Shown here one piece after another: positions 1-57,300 of a DNA stretch of 64,000 bases. The notes below the pieces were generated by a model that was not told the DNA's origin, did not search any database, and was given only the letters and a program-made list of their open reading frames with translations. Positions within the stretch are counted from its first letter, which is position 1. Every line of letters starts with the position of its first letter. Location: the NCBI RefSeq assembly GCF_949628215.1, contig NC_134288.1:10547682-10611681 (forward strand), written 5' to 3'. The position numbers and the translations under genes are program-made. The DNA is from Phalacrocorax aristotelis. Its lineage: Eukaryota > Chordata > Aves > Suliformes > Phalacrocoracidae.

Positions 1-113
1 GGGATGCCCCCTCCGAGGGAGGAGAGGAAAGGGTCGCCTTTGCCATCCCCGTGTAGGGCTGGAGCGGTGGGGAAAGCACAAAAGCACAGCAACGGAGCAA
101 GTGCGAGGGTGAC

Positions 114-119
114 TTTAAT
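114..119 (-). terminator. CRH2: CRH2 poly(A) signal ATTAAA
   Basis: The plus strand reads tttaat at 114-119, which is ATTAAA in CRH2 orientation, about 185 bases past the stop codon. It is the only poly(A)-type hexamer I see close downstream of the gene. Confidence 0.6.
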
Positions 120-302
120 GCACAACAGTGAGAGCAACACACGGGACGCAGTGACGGGGACCCCACTGGGCAAGGTGAGGGGGGGCTCCCTGGGCACAGC
201 TCCAGCCTCCAGCTGGGCAGCAGCATCCCCCCTCTCTTCTCCGCTCTGCCATGGCCACTCGCTATGGGGTTGGTCTCCTTCATTCCCTCCCACGACCCTC
301 CC

Positions 303-695
303 TCATTTTCCTATACTCTGCAGCAAGAGCTTATTGCTGAGCGCCTTCTGGGCCAGTCTTTCCTCCCGGGACATTTCCAGGAACTCGCGCAGGAGGTGGA
401 AGGTGAGATCCAGTGAGTTGGGTTTGCCGTCTCGCCTCTTGCCAGTTTGCAGCGCCCGTGGGGTGCGTGGGACTGGGGTGGGCTCTGCCTCACGGGGCTG
501 GCACAGTCTCTGGGGCAGGGGGCTGGCAGCGGGGTCGGGGGGTCGCGGGGCTCCCGGCCAGGGCTCCCAGGTGGGTTGGGGGGCCAGGGTCAGCCTGCGG
601 GTCGGGCCCCGGGGCCACTGCAGGGGTGAGCAGGTCTCCGAGGGCAGGAAGAGCAGGACGAGGACGGAGGCAGCCGAAATCATCCTGACCCGCAT
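303..695 (-). CDS. CRH2: Corticotropin-releasing hormone 2 (CRH2) precursor, complete
   Basis: Secreted neuropeptide precursor of 130 residues. The first Met codon is at 695-693 and the stop TGA at 305-303. A signal peptide (about residues 1-22, hydrophobic core ASVLVLLFLP) precedes a Pro/Arg-rich propeptide, a KRR cleavage site and a C-terminal peptide with the CRH-family core SLDLTFHLLRE. It ends IGK-stop, the Gly amidation donor followed by a basic residue, as in CRH and urocortins. The whole coding sequence lies in one exon behind a 5' UTR intron, as in other CRH-family genes. Family knowledge: such peptides act on CRHR1/CRHR2, and CRH2 of birds stimulates pituitary TSH and ACTH release. 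The predicted 40-residue peptide, the peptide sequence and the position next to UCKL1 favour CRH2 over CRH, UCN or UCN3. A second in-frame Met (683-681) has A at -3 and could be the start instead; the signal peptide survives either way. Confidence 0.9.
   Translation of the reverse strand: MRVRMISAASVLVLLFLPSETCSPLQWPRGPTRRLTLAPQPTWEPWPGAPRPPDPAASPLPQRLCQPREAEPTPVPRTPRALQTGKRRDGKPNSLDLTFHLLREFLEMSREERLAQKALSNKLLLQSIGK
309..431 (-). other. CRH2: Mature CRH2 peptide plus amidation glycine
   Basis: The predicted peptide starts at Asp (431-429), right after Lys-Arg-Arg (440-432), and ends at Ile (314-312). The Gly at 311-309 donates the C-terminal amide. This gives 40 residues. It keeps the family core LDLTFHLLRE and a long amphipathic helix, and ends LLLQSI-amide. 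Its N-terminus (DGKPNS) differs from the SEEPPIS of classical CRH. The length agrees with the 40-residue CRH2 reported for chicken. Confidence 0.88.
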
Positions 696-779
696 CACAG
701 ACGCTCCGGGGCCAGTTGCCTGCAAGAGCAGTCCCCCACCCCGGACCCTCACATCCCCCCCGATGCGGTCAGGGGGCAC

Positions 780-1130
780 CCACGGGGCTTCACGCCATGG
801 GGAACCCCACCCCAGGGATGACACCCCCCCCCGGGGATGGGACCCCCCTCCCCTGTCCCTGGGACGGGACCCCCCCCGGGGGCTGGAACACCCCACCCGG
901 GAATGGGACACCCCTGCTCCCGGGGTGAGACCCCCTCCCCTCCCGGGCCATGGGGCACCCTTGGTCGCTGCGACAGGATCCCGCCCCGTGATGTGGCACC
1001 CCCGGGATCTGGGACGCGACCCTCCGGGGGTGGGATACCCCCCAGCCCGGGCACGGGACCCTCATATCCTCGGGACTGGACACCCCTCCCCGGGGTTTGG
1101 GGCTTCCCGCCCCGGGCCGGGACCGGCCGG
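780..1130. repeat. GC-rich degenerate minisatellite in the CRH2 intron
   Basis: Degenerate units of roughly 20-30 bases built on gggacccc / ccccggggatggg / gggacacccc recur through this stretch. Runs of C on the plus strand are G-runs in the CRH2 sense strand. Long open frames across it are by-products of the repeat and low stop content. Confidence 0.7.
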
Positions 1131-1183
1131 GGCTCCTGAGTGGGGCGGAGTGGGGTGGGGGTGCCCGCCCCGGCCGCGCTCAC

Positions 1184-1240
1184 CGCTCGCCGCCGCTCCG
1201 GCCGCTCCGCTCCGCTCCGCACCGCACCGCTCCGCACCGC
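1184..1240 (-). other. CRH2: CRH2 noncoding exon 1 (5' end approximate)
   Basis: A good donor (exon ending at 1184, then GTGAGC) lies downstream of the TATA box. With transcription starting about 30 bases from the TATA box, exon 1 is roughly 55 bases and noncoding. The intron (1183-720, 464 bases) then joins exon 2 just before the start codon, the usual CRH-family arrangement. The exon consists largely of near-repeats of cgcaccgcaccgctc (1203-1258), so a GC-rich structured leader is expected. Confidence 0.6.
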
Positions 1241-1264
1241 ACCGCTCCGCACCGCCGCCCGCCA

Positions 1265-1350
1265 CCGCGCTATATAGGGGCGGCGGCGGGGCCCACGTGA
1301 CCGCGCTATAGCCGGGCGGTGCGGGGCGCACCCCCACCCCACGCGTGACG
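1265..1350 (-). promoter_or_regulatory. CRH2: CRH2 core promoter: TATA box, E-box, CRE-like half-site
   Basis: The palindromic ctatatag around 1270-1277 is a TATA box in CRH2 orientation. Upstream of it for the gene are an E-box CACGTG (1294-1299) continuing as CACGTGAC, and TGACG (1346-1350), half of a cAMP-response element. CRH genes are known for cAMP/CREB control, so the half-site is suggestive only. The string ccgcgctata occurs at 1265-1274 and again at 1301-1310, which suggests a short promoter duplication. Confidence 0.6.
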
Positions 1351-1399
1351 AGGCGCGGGGCCGGGGCGGGGGAGCTGTCCGGGGTGCTGAACGGCCGCG

Positions 1400-2000: not shown

Positions 2001-5000
2001 GGTGCAGCAGGACCAGCCAGCCGAGCCCCCCGCTCCCGTGTCGCACAGGGACATGTTTCCAGGTGCTCGGCCGCGAATCCACGCTCAGCTCCCTGAACAC
2101 CCCCTCGGAGCACCGTGGTCCCCACGGGGGCAGCAAAGGGGCACGCCGGGGCGCACACGCGTGTGCAGGATCTCCAGCCCCTCGTTATGCAGGGGAAGTC
2201 TTCCCCACCAGCACCGGCGGCTCCTTCAGAAGTTGGCCATCGAAGGCAACCCTGGCACCCTCCCCGGCTCCTCCGAGCGATCCGTCTCCTTGCATCAAGC
2301 AAATGAAAACTTCACTTCAGAAGCACAAATGCGCTTCTGGAGCGCAATTTCCCCCCCCTTGGCAGTGTACAAAAGGCACGTTCCTTCCCTGGCCCGATCG
2401 CCCAGCACAGATACACACCTCGGGGTGCAAATCGGGGTCCGAGGGATTCAAGCATGCGATTCATTTGCGTTTTCCTCCCTCCCTGCTGGAGCTTCCATCA
2501 TTCGGCACTTGGAGCTTAGCAATCACTTCACCTTGCAAATGTGCTGCTGTCTCTAAAATTAAAATTCCCTCATGAGGAATAAACATTTCAAGAGAAGAGG
2601 AAAAATATAAAAACCAAAACCCCAGCCCACAGGAAACAGAACTTGAATGAATGGCAAGAACCCCCTGCCCTCCTCCAGGTAAGGAGCCACCTGAAAAACG
2701 AGGGCTCTGCTGCTTTCTGGAGGGTCCCCAGGAAGGGCTAAGGGCATTTGTGAGGGCGGGAAGCCGGGGGCTCCCCCACTCCCCCTCAGCTGCAAAATAA
2801 CTCCCAGCAGAAGCAAAGCGGCCGTTGGGCAGGCGGGAGGGGGGAGCATCCGCCTCCCACTTGCTTTGTGCGTGGTGCATTGTGTAAGTCCTTTTCTTTA
2901 CTGAATCATCGAGAACTGCTGTCATTTCCAGTGCTCCACCTGAGCCTGCTTCTCCCTCTGTCCCCCGAAGCCTGACCCCGTGCCGTGGCTGTGCCGGGCG
3001 CTGAGCCTGCCCCCGCCGTGCTGGCGGGAGCCCTCGGCCGCGCTGGCAGGGTGCTGAGCTTGCCTACAGCTCCCAGGCGCCTCCCAGACCTGCTGGGTGC
3101 TGGGGGCAAATGTCACCCCCCACATCCCAAGAGGAGAAGGAAGAGGCTCCACCACTAGAGCCCCAGCCCTGGGGAGCCCCAGTGCAGGGGGAACGGAGCT
3201 GCCCCCCATGCTGCCCAGCTGCTCATGGGGGTCCCCGGCATTGTTTTAAGTCTCGAAATTGAACCAGGACTTGGTGGGCACTGGTGCTCCCTGCCTGCCC
3301 GGCCGCTCGCTGACGTGGGGCAGTGTTGGTGCAACACATGAAAGCAAATCTGGTGTTTATTTTTACGTAGGCCAAGCGCAGGGAAAGGTCGCCGCAGGTG
3401 ACTCGGAGCCACAGCAGCTGAGGCCGGGCACCGACAGCCAGGGAACCCTCGCTGCAGGGGCGGCCCATGTTTTAGGGCTGCTCTGCCCGCCGGCTGGTAG
3501 TGGCTGTGCCCGAGAGTCCCAGCGGCAGAGGTTTTGGCTGCTCCCCTGCACGTGGGCCTGGGCTCTCTCCCCAAAACTCTTTTTTCCCCCATCTCCTGGG
3601 GCTGCTCTGAAGAAGGAACTTGGGAGGGCCAACGGGTGTGGGGTGGGAGAGCTGCAGCAGAGGGGCATCACCCGTGGAGCTTTGGGGGCCGCACTGGCTT
3701 GGGAGGAGCAAGCCAGCAGCTCTGGGCAGGGAGAGCTGCTCCTGCACTGACACCCTCACGGCCGGGATGCTGCAGGGAGGTACAGCTCAGTTCATCTGTT
3801 ACCCCCCCACAGCAAGCACTGGGGCTGGTAATGCTTTAGACTACTTTTCTTTCAGTCCATATGCTTTAGAATTAGTCATTTAATTGTAGGAAAGACAGTG
3901 AATCCGACAAGTGGGTCTTGTACTTGTGTTTTATTTAGGAAGCTCAACTTGGAAAAAAAAAAAAATATTTTTTTCTGCTCCGTTCATGAATTACTGACGC
4001 GTTCAGCGCTGAAGGACCCCGCGTGCTGCCTGGGGATTCATTATCGTCACTTTTAGGGATGTCACTGTCTCTTCCTCTAGTCAGGAGTGCAAGGAGCGAC
4101 GTGTTAATGATGCTTTCAGGGATGCCAAATTCACCCCTCGGCTGTGCTCATTGGCTCGCAGAGGCATGGATCTGGCGGCCTCGCAGCTGGTGGGAGTCAG
4201 AGAGGCTCCTAATTAGGCGCTTTTAGCACTTGGAGCCTTCTGTCTCGCGAACAGCAAGTCGCACGTGGCAGCCGCTGCTTCGCCGACCGTGACAGCTTTG
4301 GCGCTAAAGTGTGGCTGAGCTTCCAGCAGCTTCTCCTAAGGAACTGGTGGGACTTGGCAGCCACTTTCCTCCCTTTGTTCCTTGGGGGATGGTACCCACC
4401 CCGGTCCTTCCCCATCGTCACAAAGAGCCATACCAGGGTTCACACGTGTATCGGAGGAAGGCTGCAGACAAAGATCCGGTGCCCCTCTGCTCCCCGCCGC
4501 GCACCCCCTGCGTGTGGGGTGGAAGGGGCAGCCACGGTGCCGGTGAGGGCCGACGCTGCCTGTCCTGCTCTGGAGAAGGCGTCTCATGGGCTGACGAACC
4601 TGAGATTGACCCTTATGTTTCACCATTCTCAGGTTAGACAGTCCTTGAGATGCCCCTCGCTTGGGCAGCCGCCGAACCCCCTGGCATGTGCCCTATGCCC
4701 CAACCCCCCCCAGTCTTTAAGGAATTTGGAAGAGGAAGAAGACAAGCAGCCCCTTGGCTCTGCCCTCCCACAGTAGCATTTCAGCTCATTTCCATCCCGG
4801 CTCGACCCCTGGTCTCCGCATGGAACAGCCCCTTCCCAAAGGTTTGCTGGTGGGAGGCTGTTTTCCCCTGGGGCTGCACTGACACAGAGGTCCAAGGCCC
4901 TTGCAGAGGGCCAAACCCCTGCCTGCACATGGCTGGTGCCGGGCTGGCAGCTTGCCCTCCACACTTTTCCCTTTATTTTCATTCCCACCATTGCACATTG

Positions 5001-15768: not shown

Positions 15769-39218
<23,450 letters not shown>

Positions 39219-39359
39219 GGTGCTGCGGGAGGGGCCGCGGCGGGCGGGAAGCGGCGGGATACGGGAGGAGAGGGGCGGGGCCGGGGCGGGGCCGGGGCGG
39301 GGCCGCCGCGCGGCTCCCCGGGACTTGTAGTGCGGGGGGGGGGGGAGGGAGGGGCGTGG

Positions 39360-39735
39360 GCGCTGTGAGTGCGGGGGGTGCTGTAGGGCGGGGGGGGGTG
39401 CTGTGGGTCGCGGGTGGGTGCTTTGGGGTGCCGATGGGTGCTGTGGGCGTGGGTGGGTGCTGTCAGGTGCTGACGTGTGCTGTGGGGTGTAGGTGGGTGC
39501 AGTCAGCATAGGTGGGTGCTGTGAGGCACGGGGGGTTGCTGTAGGGTGCAGTGGGTGTTTTGTGGGGCACAGGTGGGTGCTGTGGGCATGGGGGGTGCTG
39601 TGGAGTGCAGGTGGGTGCTCTGGGGTCTAGGTTGGTGCTGTGGCATGCAGGTGGGTGCTCTGGGTATGGGTGGGTGCCGTGGGCTCAGACTGGTGCTGTG
39701 GGCATGGGTGGGTGCTGTGAGGCTGCTGTGCAGGA
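39360..39735. repeat. Minisatellite, unit about 20 bases, between UCKL1 and ZNF512B
   Basis: Degenerate tandem copies of gtgggtgctgtggggtgcag; about 17-18 copies fit the interval. It starts just upstream of the UCKL1 promoter. Open frames over it are repeat artefacts. Confidence 0.88.
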
Positions 39736-54300: not shown

Positions 54301-57300
54301 AGAAAATACCCAAAGTCAGGAGTAAGGCGAGCAATTCAAGGAGGAAAGTGAGGAATGCAAGTGCTGAGGCTGGAGCGGGGAGAAGACAGCACCACACCTC
54401 TCCTCCCACAACATTTGAAATGAAACAGCTACTTTGGGCTTGATTTTTTTATGTTATAAATGCATTGCAGCTGGAGTCATCTGGAAACGAATAATGACAA
54501 CACCAAGCATTGGGGAAATAAAAGGTTTGCAACCAGTTCTGGCCCTAAACCCTCCAGCTCTGCTCCAAGGCGGATGGCAGCACCATGGCTGGATCTCCTC
54601 CTGCGCTAGCTGCCTCACCAGATGCCAAGGTGGGTAAAGAAGACATTGGTTTGTTTGTATGCTAGTTTTTCACCTCTCCACTGTGTGCAGACTGTGAGCG
54701 GAGTCAGGCTCAGCTCCTCCAGGTCTCTGCAGGATGACGGTGGCTCTTCTGAGAACACACATGTGCCAGGACAGCGTGGGACAGGCTGCAGCAGCTGGAA
54801 GACGTTTTGGCTGAAGCTCTGCTGTTGTGCCACCTATTTTCCTTGGGTGAGCCGCATCACTTCTGCAGGCTGGCTCTCGGACTTGGGCTGTTTTCCTGGC
54901 TTGAGACAGGTCCTTTGGGCTGGGGCTGTCCTACACTGCATGCTCGTGGCAGAGGTGCCGCCACACTCTCCTGCTGTGGCAAAGCTTTAACCTGTTTCCC
55001 TGTCCCTCACTCTCCTCTTTGCAACGTGCCCAGTATCCTGCCCAGGGTGAATTTCAGAGCACTGGACAAGAGACATTCAACTGTTCAGAGCAAGGAAAAG
55101 ACCTGGCATCTAGCTGGAGAGTTACTTGCTCAGGAAACAGGCTGCAGCTTGTGCAGAGACTTGCAGATTGATTCTGCTTTGAGTCCCAGTGCTGGCCAGA
55201 AAGTATTGACTACAGGATTAAAAAACTCTTGACTCCCTCTCTTTTTTTCCTTTTACACTGAAAAGGTTTATGATCCGTTGCTGCTTATTCCTTTTACAGT
55301 CCAGAAGGAGGGTTCCTGGAGGGAACTTCCAACTTTGGGACACTCCCAGGAATCACCTCCTCCCACAGCCAGGAGGGATGTTTAACATGTTACTTCAATG
55401 CCTCCAGGAAGCTCAAGACTGCCAAGGCACCAACTTTCACCATACCGATCCTGCAGCACCAGGCCACAAACATCACTGCTGGGGACTGCAGGGCTGAGCC
55501 CTTCCCCCACGCCCCAGCCTCCTCCACTCGCAGGAGCACTGCTCTGGCAATACTGCTGGCCCTTTACCTCCAGGGAAACATCTCCCAGAAATTAAGGAAA
55601 AGACATGGAAGAGAGGAAATTCTGCCTGGGGCATCTTTGCTCTCTGACAATGCAAAGGAGATCTTTTCAGATCTGACCTCCGCTCTCTCCTTATGCTCCT
55701 CTTGGCTGGCAGCCCTACTTCGCTGCTGAGCATGGACCAGAACTGACCCCCCTCCACAACAACCTCTGGGCTGGACTCTGATCTCTCCACTGCCCACAAA
55801 GCACCACCTTTTGTTCCATTTAGATCTGGGCCCTTGCAGTGGCAAGGGCAAAGCTGCCTGCTGCCAGACTTGTATGGAGCCTCCAGACCACTGGGGCTCA
55901 ACCTGTTCTGGGTGGGCTTTTCAGGAATAAATTTACTACCTCAGCTAATTGATTTAACGCACAGAAAATGAGCCACATGAGCCCTCAGCCAGCTGGGGCC
56001 GCAATGGTGTCCCAGGATCTCTGTGCCTGGCTAGCACACACACATAAAAAAAAAGTAGAAATAGAAGGTTCTCACCCGCTTTGTTTCAGGCACCAGGTCA
56101 TCCTTCATCCTCCGCTTGGTCCAATCCCTGGCAAGCTCGTCCTCCGCAATCTCCTGAAGGTGGAAGACGGCTACTTGGGCTGATGTCCGACGGATGCGGC
56201 CACTCGGGGTCCTTTCAAAATCTTCTATGGGGGTGGGCTCTGGCTTCACCTCTGGCTCCTCCGGAGGCTGTAACAGAGATAGAGTTAGGAAGGGCACAAG
56301 AAGAAGAGAAGCAGCAAGCTCTCCAGCCCCAGGACAGGGATGCTGGTGTTTGGGCTGTGCATCTGTATACCTGCTTTGTGCAAGCAAGGGCTGCAGACAC
56401 CCCAGTGTGCCTCTGCACCCAAGCATGGGAACAAGTGGAGCACCCCGCCTCCTGCAGCCCAGCAGATAGACACGTGCTGGACTGATTGCATCCTTTCACA
56501 CTCCCATGTGTATAAGCGTCTCCATTTATTAGTCAGGGAGCTATTAGCATTGGATGCACTGTCAGTAGGGATCAAGAGAACAGAAAAGGATGCTCCCCAG
56601 GGAGAGATCCTGCCACCCCACCACTGGCGAGCAGTTGGTGCTTGCTTGCTGCCCAGGGAGGGGCCTGAGATGTTTCTCCCTGCAGAGCACGAATGCAGGG
56701 TGGGCTGGAGCACAGCCCTATGGGCACCAGGGAGGGGGAATGTTGCCAACTGCTCTGCTCCCATAAACACAGCTCCCCGCTTTCTCAGAGGGGCAGATGG
56801 GGCTGCAGCCTGTTCCCCCCGCAACACCACATCGTACAACACGTGCACAGTGATGTGAGGGAGAAAACAACATCGGTCTGATGTCTGCACCTGCCTTGCC
56901 CGGCCTGGCCCTGCCCGGCTCTGTCCTGCCCACAGGCTCTGCAGCTCTGCAGTCGCCCCCCAGGGTGGATGGCCCCGCTCCTCGGGCTGTGGAGGCGTCC
57001 GGGGGGCTCACTGAGGCCGTGTGTTCTGACCGCACATGGTAGTCATGGCCAGCCTTGGATTTGTACTTCTTGCCACAGTGTGGACAGCTGAAGACAGGCT
57101 TGTCGGCCTCGGTGAGCTGCTTCCCACACCGCTTCTGGTGGTACTGGTAGCCCATCAGGCTGGAGAAGTTGGCCATGCAGCCCTATGGAGATGGGAAGAA
57201 GCACAGGGTTAAGGAGGGCTGGGGCTTCACACGCCCATGTCAAAACCATCGAGTGCCATTGCTCCAGGGAGGAACATGACCCGAGGAGCCCCCTTCGCAG

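Follow-up and report, generated by a model that had tools for sequence, protein, structure and literature searches.

The question raised by this locus is whether a short reading frame near one end of a 64-kb stretch of Phalacrocorax aristotelis DNA (here called the window, by which we mean the whole of the stretch analysed) is an intact copy of the neuropeptide gene CRH2, and what the sequence just upstream may tell us about how the gene is controlled. An initial annotation had placed a precursor of the CRH family on the minus strand, and its coordinates for the coding sequence and the splice junctions were exact to the base. The gene and its promoter are laid out as follows.

303..695, minus strand: CRH2 coding sequence, whole in exon 2; 393 bp from ATG to TGA, 130 aa plus stop
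312..431, minus strand: mature CRH2 peptide, residues 89-128 (DGKP...LLLQSI), 40 aa, with codons counted from the ATG at 695
306..311, minus strand: Gly-Lys amidation tail (residues 129-130), directly before the TGA at 305-303, from reading the sequence
432..440, minus strand: KRR cleavage site, residues 86-88, from reading the sequence
696..719, minus strand: 5' UTR part of exon 2, 24 nt
720..1183, minus strand: predicted 5' UTR intron, 464 bp, GT...AG, from the sequence
1184..1247, minus strand: predicted untranslated exon 1, 64 bp, its start at 1247 placed with the TATA box at -29, as in chicken
1270..1277, minus strand: TATA box CTATATAG, from the sequence, with matching chicken codons at -29
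1294..1299, no strand assigned: E-box CACGTG, flanked by two TATA-like boxes and reading YSAVTW in the chicken model P0071
1306-1311: second TATA-like box CTATAG, from the sequence
114..119, minus strand: polyadenylation signal ATTAAA, from the sequence

By reading, the protein has the parts of a CRF-family precursor, namely a leader, a basic cleavage site, a C-terminal peptide and a Gly(-Lys) tail. The hydrophobic leader MRVRMISAASVLVLLFLPSETCS, assigned as signal peptide by eye from the hydrophobic start, is followed by a proline-rich variable spacer, by TGKRR and then by DGKPNSLDLTFHLLREFLEMSREERLAQKALSNKLLLQSI-GK. The 40-aa mature peptide is DGKPNSLDLTFHLLREFLEMSREERLAQKALSNKLLLQSI, with KRR before it and Gly-Lys and the stop after it, and the cleavage site, the 40-residue peptide and the Gly donor of the initial annotation are all in the places given for them. 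The precursor matched the Pfam CRF model (PF00473) at an E-value of 4.2e-8 (33.6 bits; curated cut-off 22.1), and in a search of the PDB its best relative with a solved structure was corticoliberin 6p9x (E 4.6e-9). This match to the family is far above chance and bears out a minus-strand CRH-family precursor at 695..303.

The predicted intron starts with GTGAGC at 1183 and ends with ...CTCTTGCAG (TTGCAG), which precedes base 719 of exon 2, giving the CRH2 plan of two predicted exons with the entire coding region in the second. Both the 5' UTR intron (GT-AG, 1183..720) and the TATA promoter (CTATATAG, 1277..1270) that had been put forward are found in the sequence as predicted elements. A 36-bp unit repeated 1.9 times at 1264-1331 duplicates the TATA-like box, so that one copy lies on either side of the E-box CACGTG, and the protein reading of chicken P0071 is compatible with both TATA-like boxes. 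On the opposite strand, a 436-codon ORF antisense to CRH2 (1-1308, plus strand) is open at the window edge and has no Pfam match; it is likely a by-product of the high GC content.

For the placement of the gene within the family, we searched about 5.8 billion proteins with the CRH2 precursor as query at an E-value of 10 or better. All 110 relatives carried the CRF domain PF00473 (best E 5.2e-74), and the six nearest were 91-95% identical to the query across the entire precursor. With a human CRH precursor as query, a second search found 652 matches; the best 120 of them, which were listed, included bird CRH1, and a third search, with human urocortin, found 111. From 342 proteins, 39 rows were chosen for a first tree (22 CRH2, the window included, 10 CRH1 and 7 urocortin/urotensin), in which a branch supported at 80/86 set off CRH2 with the window inside it, and CRH1 (86/90) and urocortin/urotensin (100/99) each lay on their own side of a branch. 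The CRH2 branch was present in 78% of 200 bootstrap trees, and because the analysis carried a long-branch warning a second tree was rebuilt with 25 rows. There the 11 sauropsid CRH2 rows, again including the window, came together (89/94), as did CRH1 (89/99); the placement of gar and bowfin CRH2 was not settled, the long-branch warning persisted, and a branch separating all CRH2 from the rest was recovered in only 26% of 200 bootstraps. We regard the support that these trees suggest for CRH2 as a whole as moderate. In both of them the protein falls with sauropsid CRH2 and apart from CRH1 and UCN1, which is the outcome on which the initial annotation had staked its CRH2 identity.

At least four bird species had both CRH1 and CRH2 rows in our searches (CRH1/CRH2: ostrich, Struthio, P0225/P0046; magpie goose, Anseranas, P0227/P0036; Pezoporus, P0221/P0050; Phaethornis, P0229/P0040), and since these birds carry both rows, CRH2 is a locus separate from CRH1. 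That the gene might instead be this bird's CRH1, the ordinary corticoliberin, or its urocortin 1, as the LDLTFHLLRE core common to CRH1 and CRH2 and the database names 'corticoliberin-like' or 'CRF protein' of most bird relatives could suggest, has a negligible probability against two trees that set the protein apart from both, a separate CRH1 in at least four of the bird species searched, a mature peptide that matches human CRH at only 25 of 40 residues and human UCN1 at 16 of 40, and UCKL1 as the neighbour. We conclude that the locus is almost certainly the avian CRH2 gene, to judge from its sequence an intact copy with an intron-less coding region, a TATA promoter and a predicted 5' UTR intron.

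As a gene it is not new, the finding being an orthologue of the CRH2 already known from chicken and many other birds. The accompanying statements of the initial annotation, that CRH2 is missing from placental mammals and known in chicken, are already published, as two papers relate (PMC9353778; PMC6727040). Its suggestion that standard annotation may have overlooked the gene did not hold for birds generally, as 67 of the 110 relatives were bird-named, mostly under the labels 'corticoliberin-like' or 'CRF protein'. Earlier surveys missed CRH2 in chicken, a failure that Bu et al. ascribe to gaps in the assembly and to high GC content (PMC6727040); the present gene, ordinary as bird genes go, is nonetheless a clean and complete copy of one once missed in chicken. 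As to the database rows themselves, five models (P0052, P0053, P0054, P0055 and P0057) were 98-105 aa long, with about 30 spacer residues of their relatives absent, and such short models perhaps reflect a false annotation intron; the Falco naumanni row P0013 has 130 aa and the Falco tinnunculus row P0055 has 98 aa. Three further rows (P0065, P0108 and P0110) are named urocortin or urocortin-like yet have the CRH2-type peptide PNSLDLTFHLLREFL, and are likely misnamed.

The surroundings of the gene agree with the synteny of CRH2, with UCKL1 exons on the same strand.

15772..31375, minus strand: UCKL1 coding exons, from tblastn with a human UCKL1 query
4570..4662, minus strand: mir-1388 precursor over its full length, scoring 100.2 bits (gathering score 58)

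The tblastn search gave 13 UCKL1 blocks, ten at 72-96% identity and three at 30-69%, the latter probably run-on alignments. From the end of the last mapped block (15772) to the predicted start of CRH2 is about 14.5 kb, with mir-1388 between the two genes and on the same strand as both. At this distance, the description of CRH2 as next to UCKL1 is a fair one. In ray-finned fish, uckl1 has been placed on the crh2 paralogon (PMC9353778). Between position 1595 and the last UCKL1 block, 13 stop-to-stop ORFs of at least 150 aa were compared with Pfam; with matches counted up to E 0.1, one of the 13 had any (DUF4630, E 0.0071, below cut-off), in a screen that shorter exons escape. Human DNAJC5 had no match in the 64-kb window. 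The idea that a single deletion removed mir-1388 and CRH2 together in placental mammals was dropped, mir-1388 having been identified in pig small-RNA data, by low-confidence BLAST and a read profile (PMC4124155). Farther along the window, a minisatellite of units of about 20/59 bp lies at 39356-39723, within a GC-rich stretch at 38-40 kb. A weak reverse-transcriptase reading at 27163-27837 on the plus strand (Pfam RVT_1, E 0.0047, below cut-off) is, we assume, probably an old CR1-type element. A zinc-finger-like exon at 56721-57182 on the minus strand gave a weak match to ZNF512 (E 0.0032, below cut-off), which would fit ZNF512B, presumably to be expected beside UCKL1 from gene order.

An open frame may also belong to a copy that is decayed or unexpressed, with the gene out of use. 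The parrot CRH2 rows P0048, P0050, P0058 and P0061 have 3 to 8 changes among the 40 residues of a peptide that is otherwise steady in birds, and the budgerigar row P0061 is without the two basic residues before the peptide; relaxed constraint on CRH2 in parrots is possible, and so the gene may lose its constraint within birds. For the copy studied here such disuse is very improbable, since its reading frame and splice sites are intact, as are the TATA box and poly(A) signal and, in the precursor, the cleavage site and amidation tail, and since its mature peptide, identical in 43 of 111 rows (window counted), is the commonest form.

The fresh detail of this locus, absent from the initial annotation and the part that we consider worth follow-up, is a candidate control element upstream of the promoter.

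1371..1391, minus strand: match to the RE1/NRSE (REST-binding) consensus, TTCAGCACCCCGGACAGCTCC, at predicted -144..-124; putative REST-binding site

The element TTCAGCACCCCGGACAGCTCC matches TTCAGCACCNNGGACAGCNCC, which we take to be the RE1/NRSE consensus, with no mismatches, and agrees at 18 of 21 bases with a fuller form of the consensus. A shorter form, beginning TTCAGCACC, is in print (PMC2733102). As in a REST target, a 21-bp RE1 consensus lies near the gene (1391..1371), and its end is 93 bp upstream of the TATA box. A single 21-mer match is no proof of binding, and an RE1-like sequence could arise by chance in a GC-rich promoter and have no part in REST control, with the silencing seen in chicken owed to some other cause. 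Against such an accident, the exact consensus matched once in 64 kb and in none of 100 whole-window shuffles, and in 400 local shuffles of 1001-1800 the fewest mismatches to RE1 were four, reached in six shuffles. When up to three mismatches were allowed, the element was still the sole match in the window (0.20 expected), and 18 of 100 window shuffles had a match, a figure that leaves chance more room.

In chicken, removal of the promoter from -989 to -113 raised reporter activity in DF-1 and HEK293T cells, and Bu et al. suspected silencers within -518/-113 (PMC6727040). They name TATA, CREB, Sp1 and AP1 sites in the promoter, and the words REST, NRSF and RE1 are absent from their text (PMC6727040). 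Our search for REST/NRSF control of CRH2 in the literature, among open-licence papers and with subscription papers mostly outside its scope, found no claim of it. When chicken primers were compared with the window DNA, the coding qPCR antisense primer matched at 17 of 20 bases, and for the six others the best ungapped match spanned 12 to 15 bases, lying in four cases outside the promoter or gene; the promoter comparison therefore rests on the protein reading of the RefSeq chicken model P0071 (XP_024998126.1, isoform X3), from which, and not from DNA, the chicken RE1 was inferred.

The first 87 residues of this model are promoter sequence in translation (...GRSAPRTAPRPVSREE...YSAVTW...RRRPYIARS), and in the window GRSAPRTAP and RRRPYIAR stand in frame leading into exon 1. 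The numbering was anchored by the printed chicken -112 primer, which leads to PVSRE, on the assumption, taken from the name of the construct, that its first base is -112; with this anchor the chicken TATA codons fall at -29, the expected position of a TATA box, which provides a check on the method. On this numbering the chicken residues RSAPRTAP permit a full RE1 at -135..-115 (0 mismatches, by protein reading), at a similar distance to that in the window; the -112 construct just fails to include this stretch, which lies close against the edge of the suspected silencer interval -518/-113, on its inner side. The recurrence of the same 8-residue reading in chicken argues against a chance match, as does its being the only zero-mismatch RE1-compatible 8-mer in frame among 13,968 (from the proteins of the 110 relatives and the window's own), in a control that is weak because it is mostly coding sequence. 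The red-winged blackbird model P0032, which reads RSAPRTDL at the same stretch and is off the motif by at least two bases, speaks for chance. The other extended CRH2 models had no RE1-compatible reading in the three frames searched, and may not span the site. The long N-terminal extensions of P0071, P0032 and P0025 resemble translated promoter, with the TATA-fitting PYIAR, PYKAR and PFIAR, and such extensions are probably annotation artefacts or rare upstream transcripts.

We propose that transcription would start some 29 bp downstream of the TATA box and that REST, bound to the RE1 just upstream, would damp CRH2 transcription in non-neuronal cells. The first intron of the CRH1 gene contains a conserved RE-1, the disruption of which raises basal activity in REST-rich cells (PMC2733102), and because of this intronic element and the chicken deletion data together, REST control is a natural inference for CRH2. 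The deletion data are compatible with silencing through RE1 but do not pinpoint it, and the element leaves unexplained the strong activity obtained from -989/-519 alone and the second promoter that Bu et al. proposed there (PMC6727040). In chicken, every tissue tested contained CRH2 mRNA, with abundance in brain, spinal cord and pituitary (PMC6727040), and therefore any silencing would be partial or incomplete; this wide expression also adds to the case for a fortuitous motif. A match due to chance is a possibility to be taken seriously, although it falls on the doubtful side of even. The REST step in the control of CRH2 we hold to be somewhat probable. If this reading of the RE1 is true, the suspected silencer of the published reporter data gets a name, the control of CRH1 and that of CRH2 become linked, and the abundance of CRH2 in brain and spinal cord becomes a question that can be asked.

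The peptide itself raises a second point. From family knowledge, signal peptidase and a prohormone convertase would cut the precursor, a carboxypeptidase would remove the Lys, the Gly would then amidate the C-terminal Ile, and the released peptide would activate class B receptors. The chicken peptide acts preferentially on CRHR2 rather than on CRHR1; it raises TSH-beta expression and, with lower potency, the secretion of ACTH (PMC6727040). At positions 22-25 (human CRH numbering), the window and 94 of the 110 relatives have SREE, and ARAE was found in 100 among the best 120 of the 652 CRH-search matches listed, with 10 of the 120 unreadable. Fish and shark CRH2 rows had A-K/R-A-E in 10 of 11 cases (P0101-P0111), and two reptile-like rows had AREE (P0098 and P0100). 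The ARAE motif, above all Ala22, is important for CRH-binding protein, and replacement of Ala22 by Glu largely cuts binding (PMC10886364). We offer it as a prediction only that sauropsid CRH2 would bind CRH-binding protein less well, one that is tempered by Ser for Ala being a mild replacement. A literature search on CRH2 and CRHBP in birds returned only PMC9601729, where CRH2 occurs once, in the reference list. With the SREE change, whether CRH-binding protein buffers CRH2 becomes a question that a binding test can answer directly.

Joined into one account, these points would make bird CRH2 a gene silenced by REST through RE1, with chicken -135..-115 as the unnamed silencer; CRH1 and CRH2 would both be held down outside neurons through differently placed RE1s, and the sauropsid SREE may let the peptide partly escape CRH-binding protein and act on CRHR2 as a stress and thyrotropic signal with less buffering. 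We consider this full account to be evenly poised between right and wrong.

Chicken CRH2 (KU887752), cloned by RACE with a 107-aa precursor and a 40-aa mature peptide (Bu et al. 2019, PMC6727040), has a mature peptide that differs from the present one at residue 1 only, with E in chicken and D here. Like the chicken gene, this one has an untranslated exon 1, an intron-less coding sequence in exon 2, a TATA box, an ATTAAA signal and a Gly-Lys tail (PMC6727040). A longer spacer brings the precursor to 130 aa, compared with 107 in chicken; the intron is 464 bp against 416, and the predicted exon 1 is 64 bp against 35 (PMC6727040). Of the two nearest named rows, that of Grus americana (P0004) differs by a few spacer substitutions and three residues fewer and has an identical mature peptide, and the Caloenas nicobarica row P0003 has a few spacer substitutions and a mature peptide that differs at residue 2. 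With neuronal genes controlled by RE1/NRSE, the present gene shares an exact TTCAGCACCNNGGACAGCNCC match near the predicted start, in CRH2 a putative RE1. With CRH1 it shares the two-exon plan and the LDLTFHLLRE core. It differs from CRH1 in the mature peptide, of which 25 of 40 residues equal human CRH and in which the ARAE of CRH1 at 22-25 is replaced by SREE, and in the place of the predicted RE1, which lies upstream of the promoter in CRH2 here and in the first intron in CRH1 (PMC2733102).
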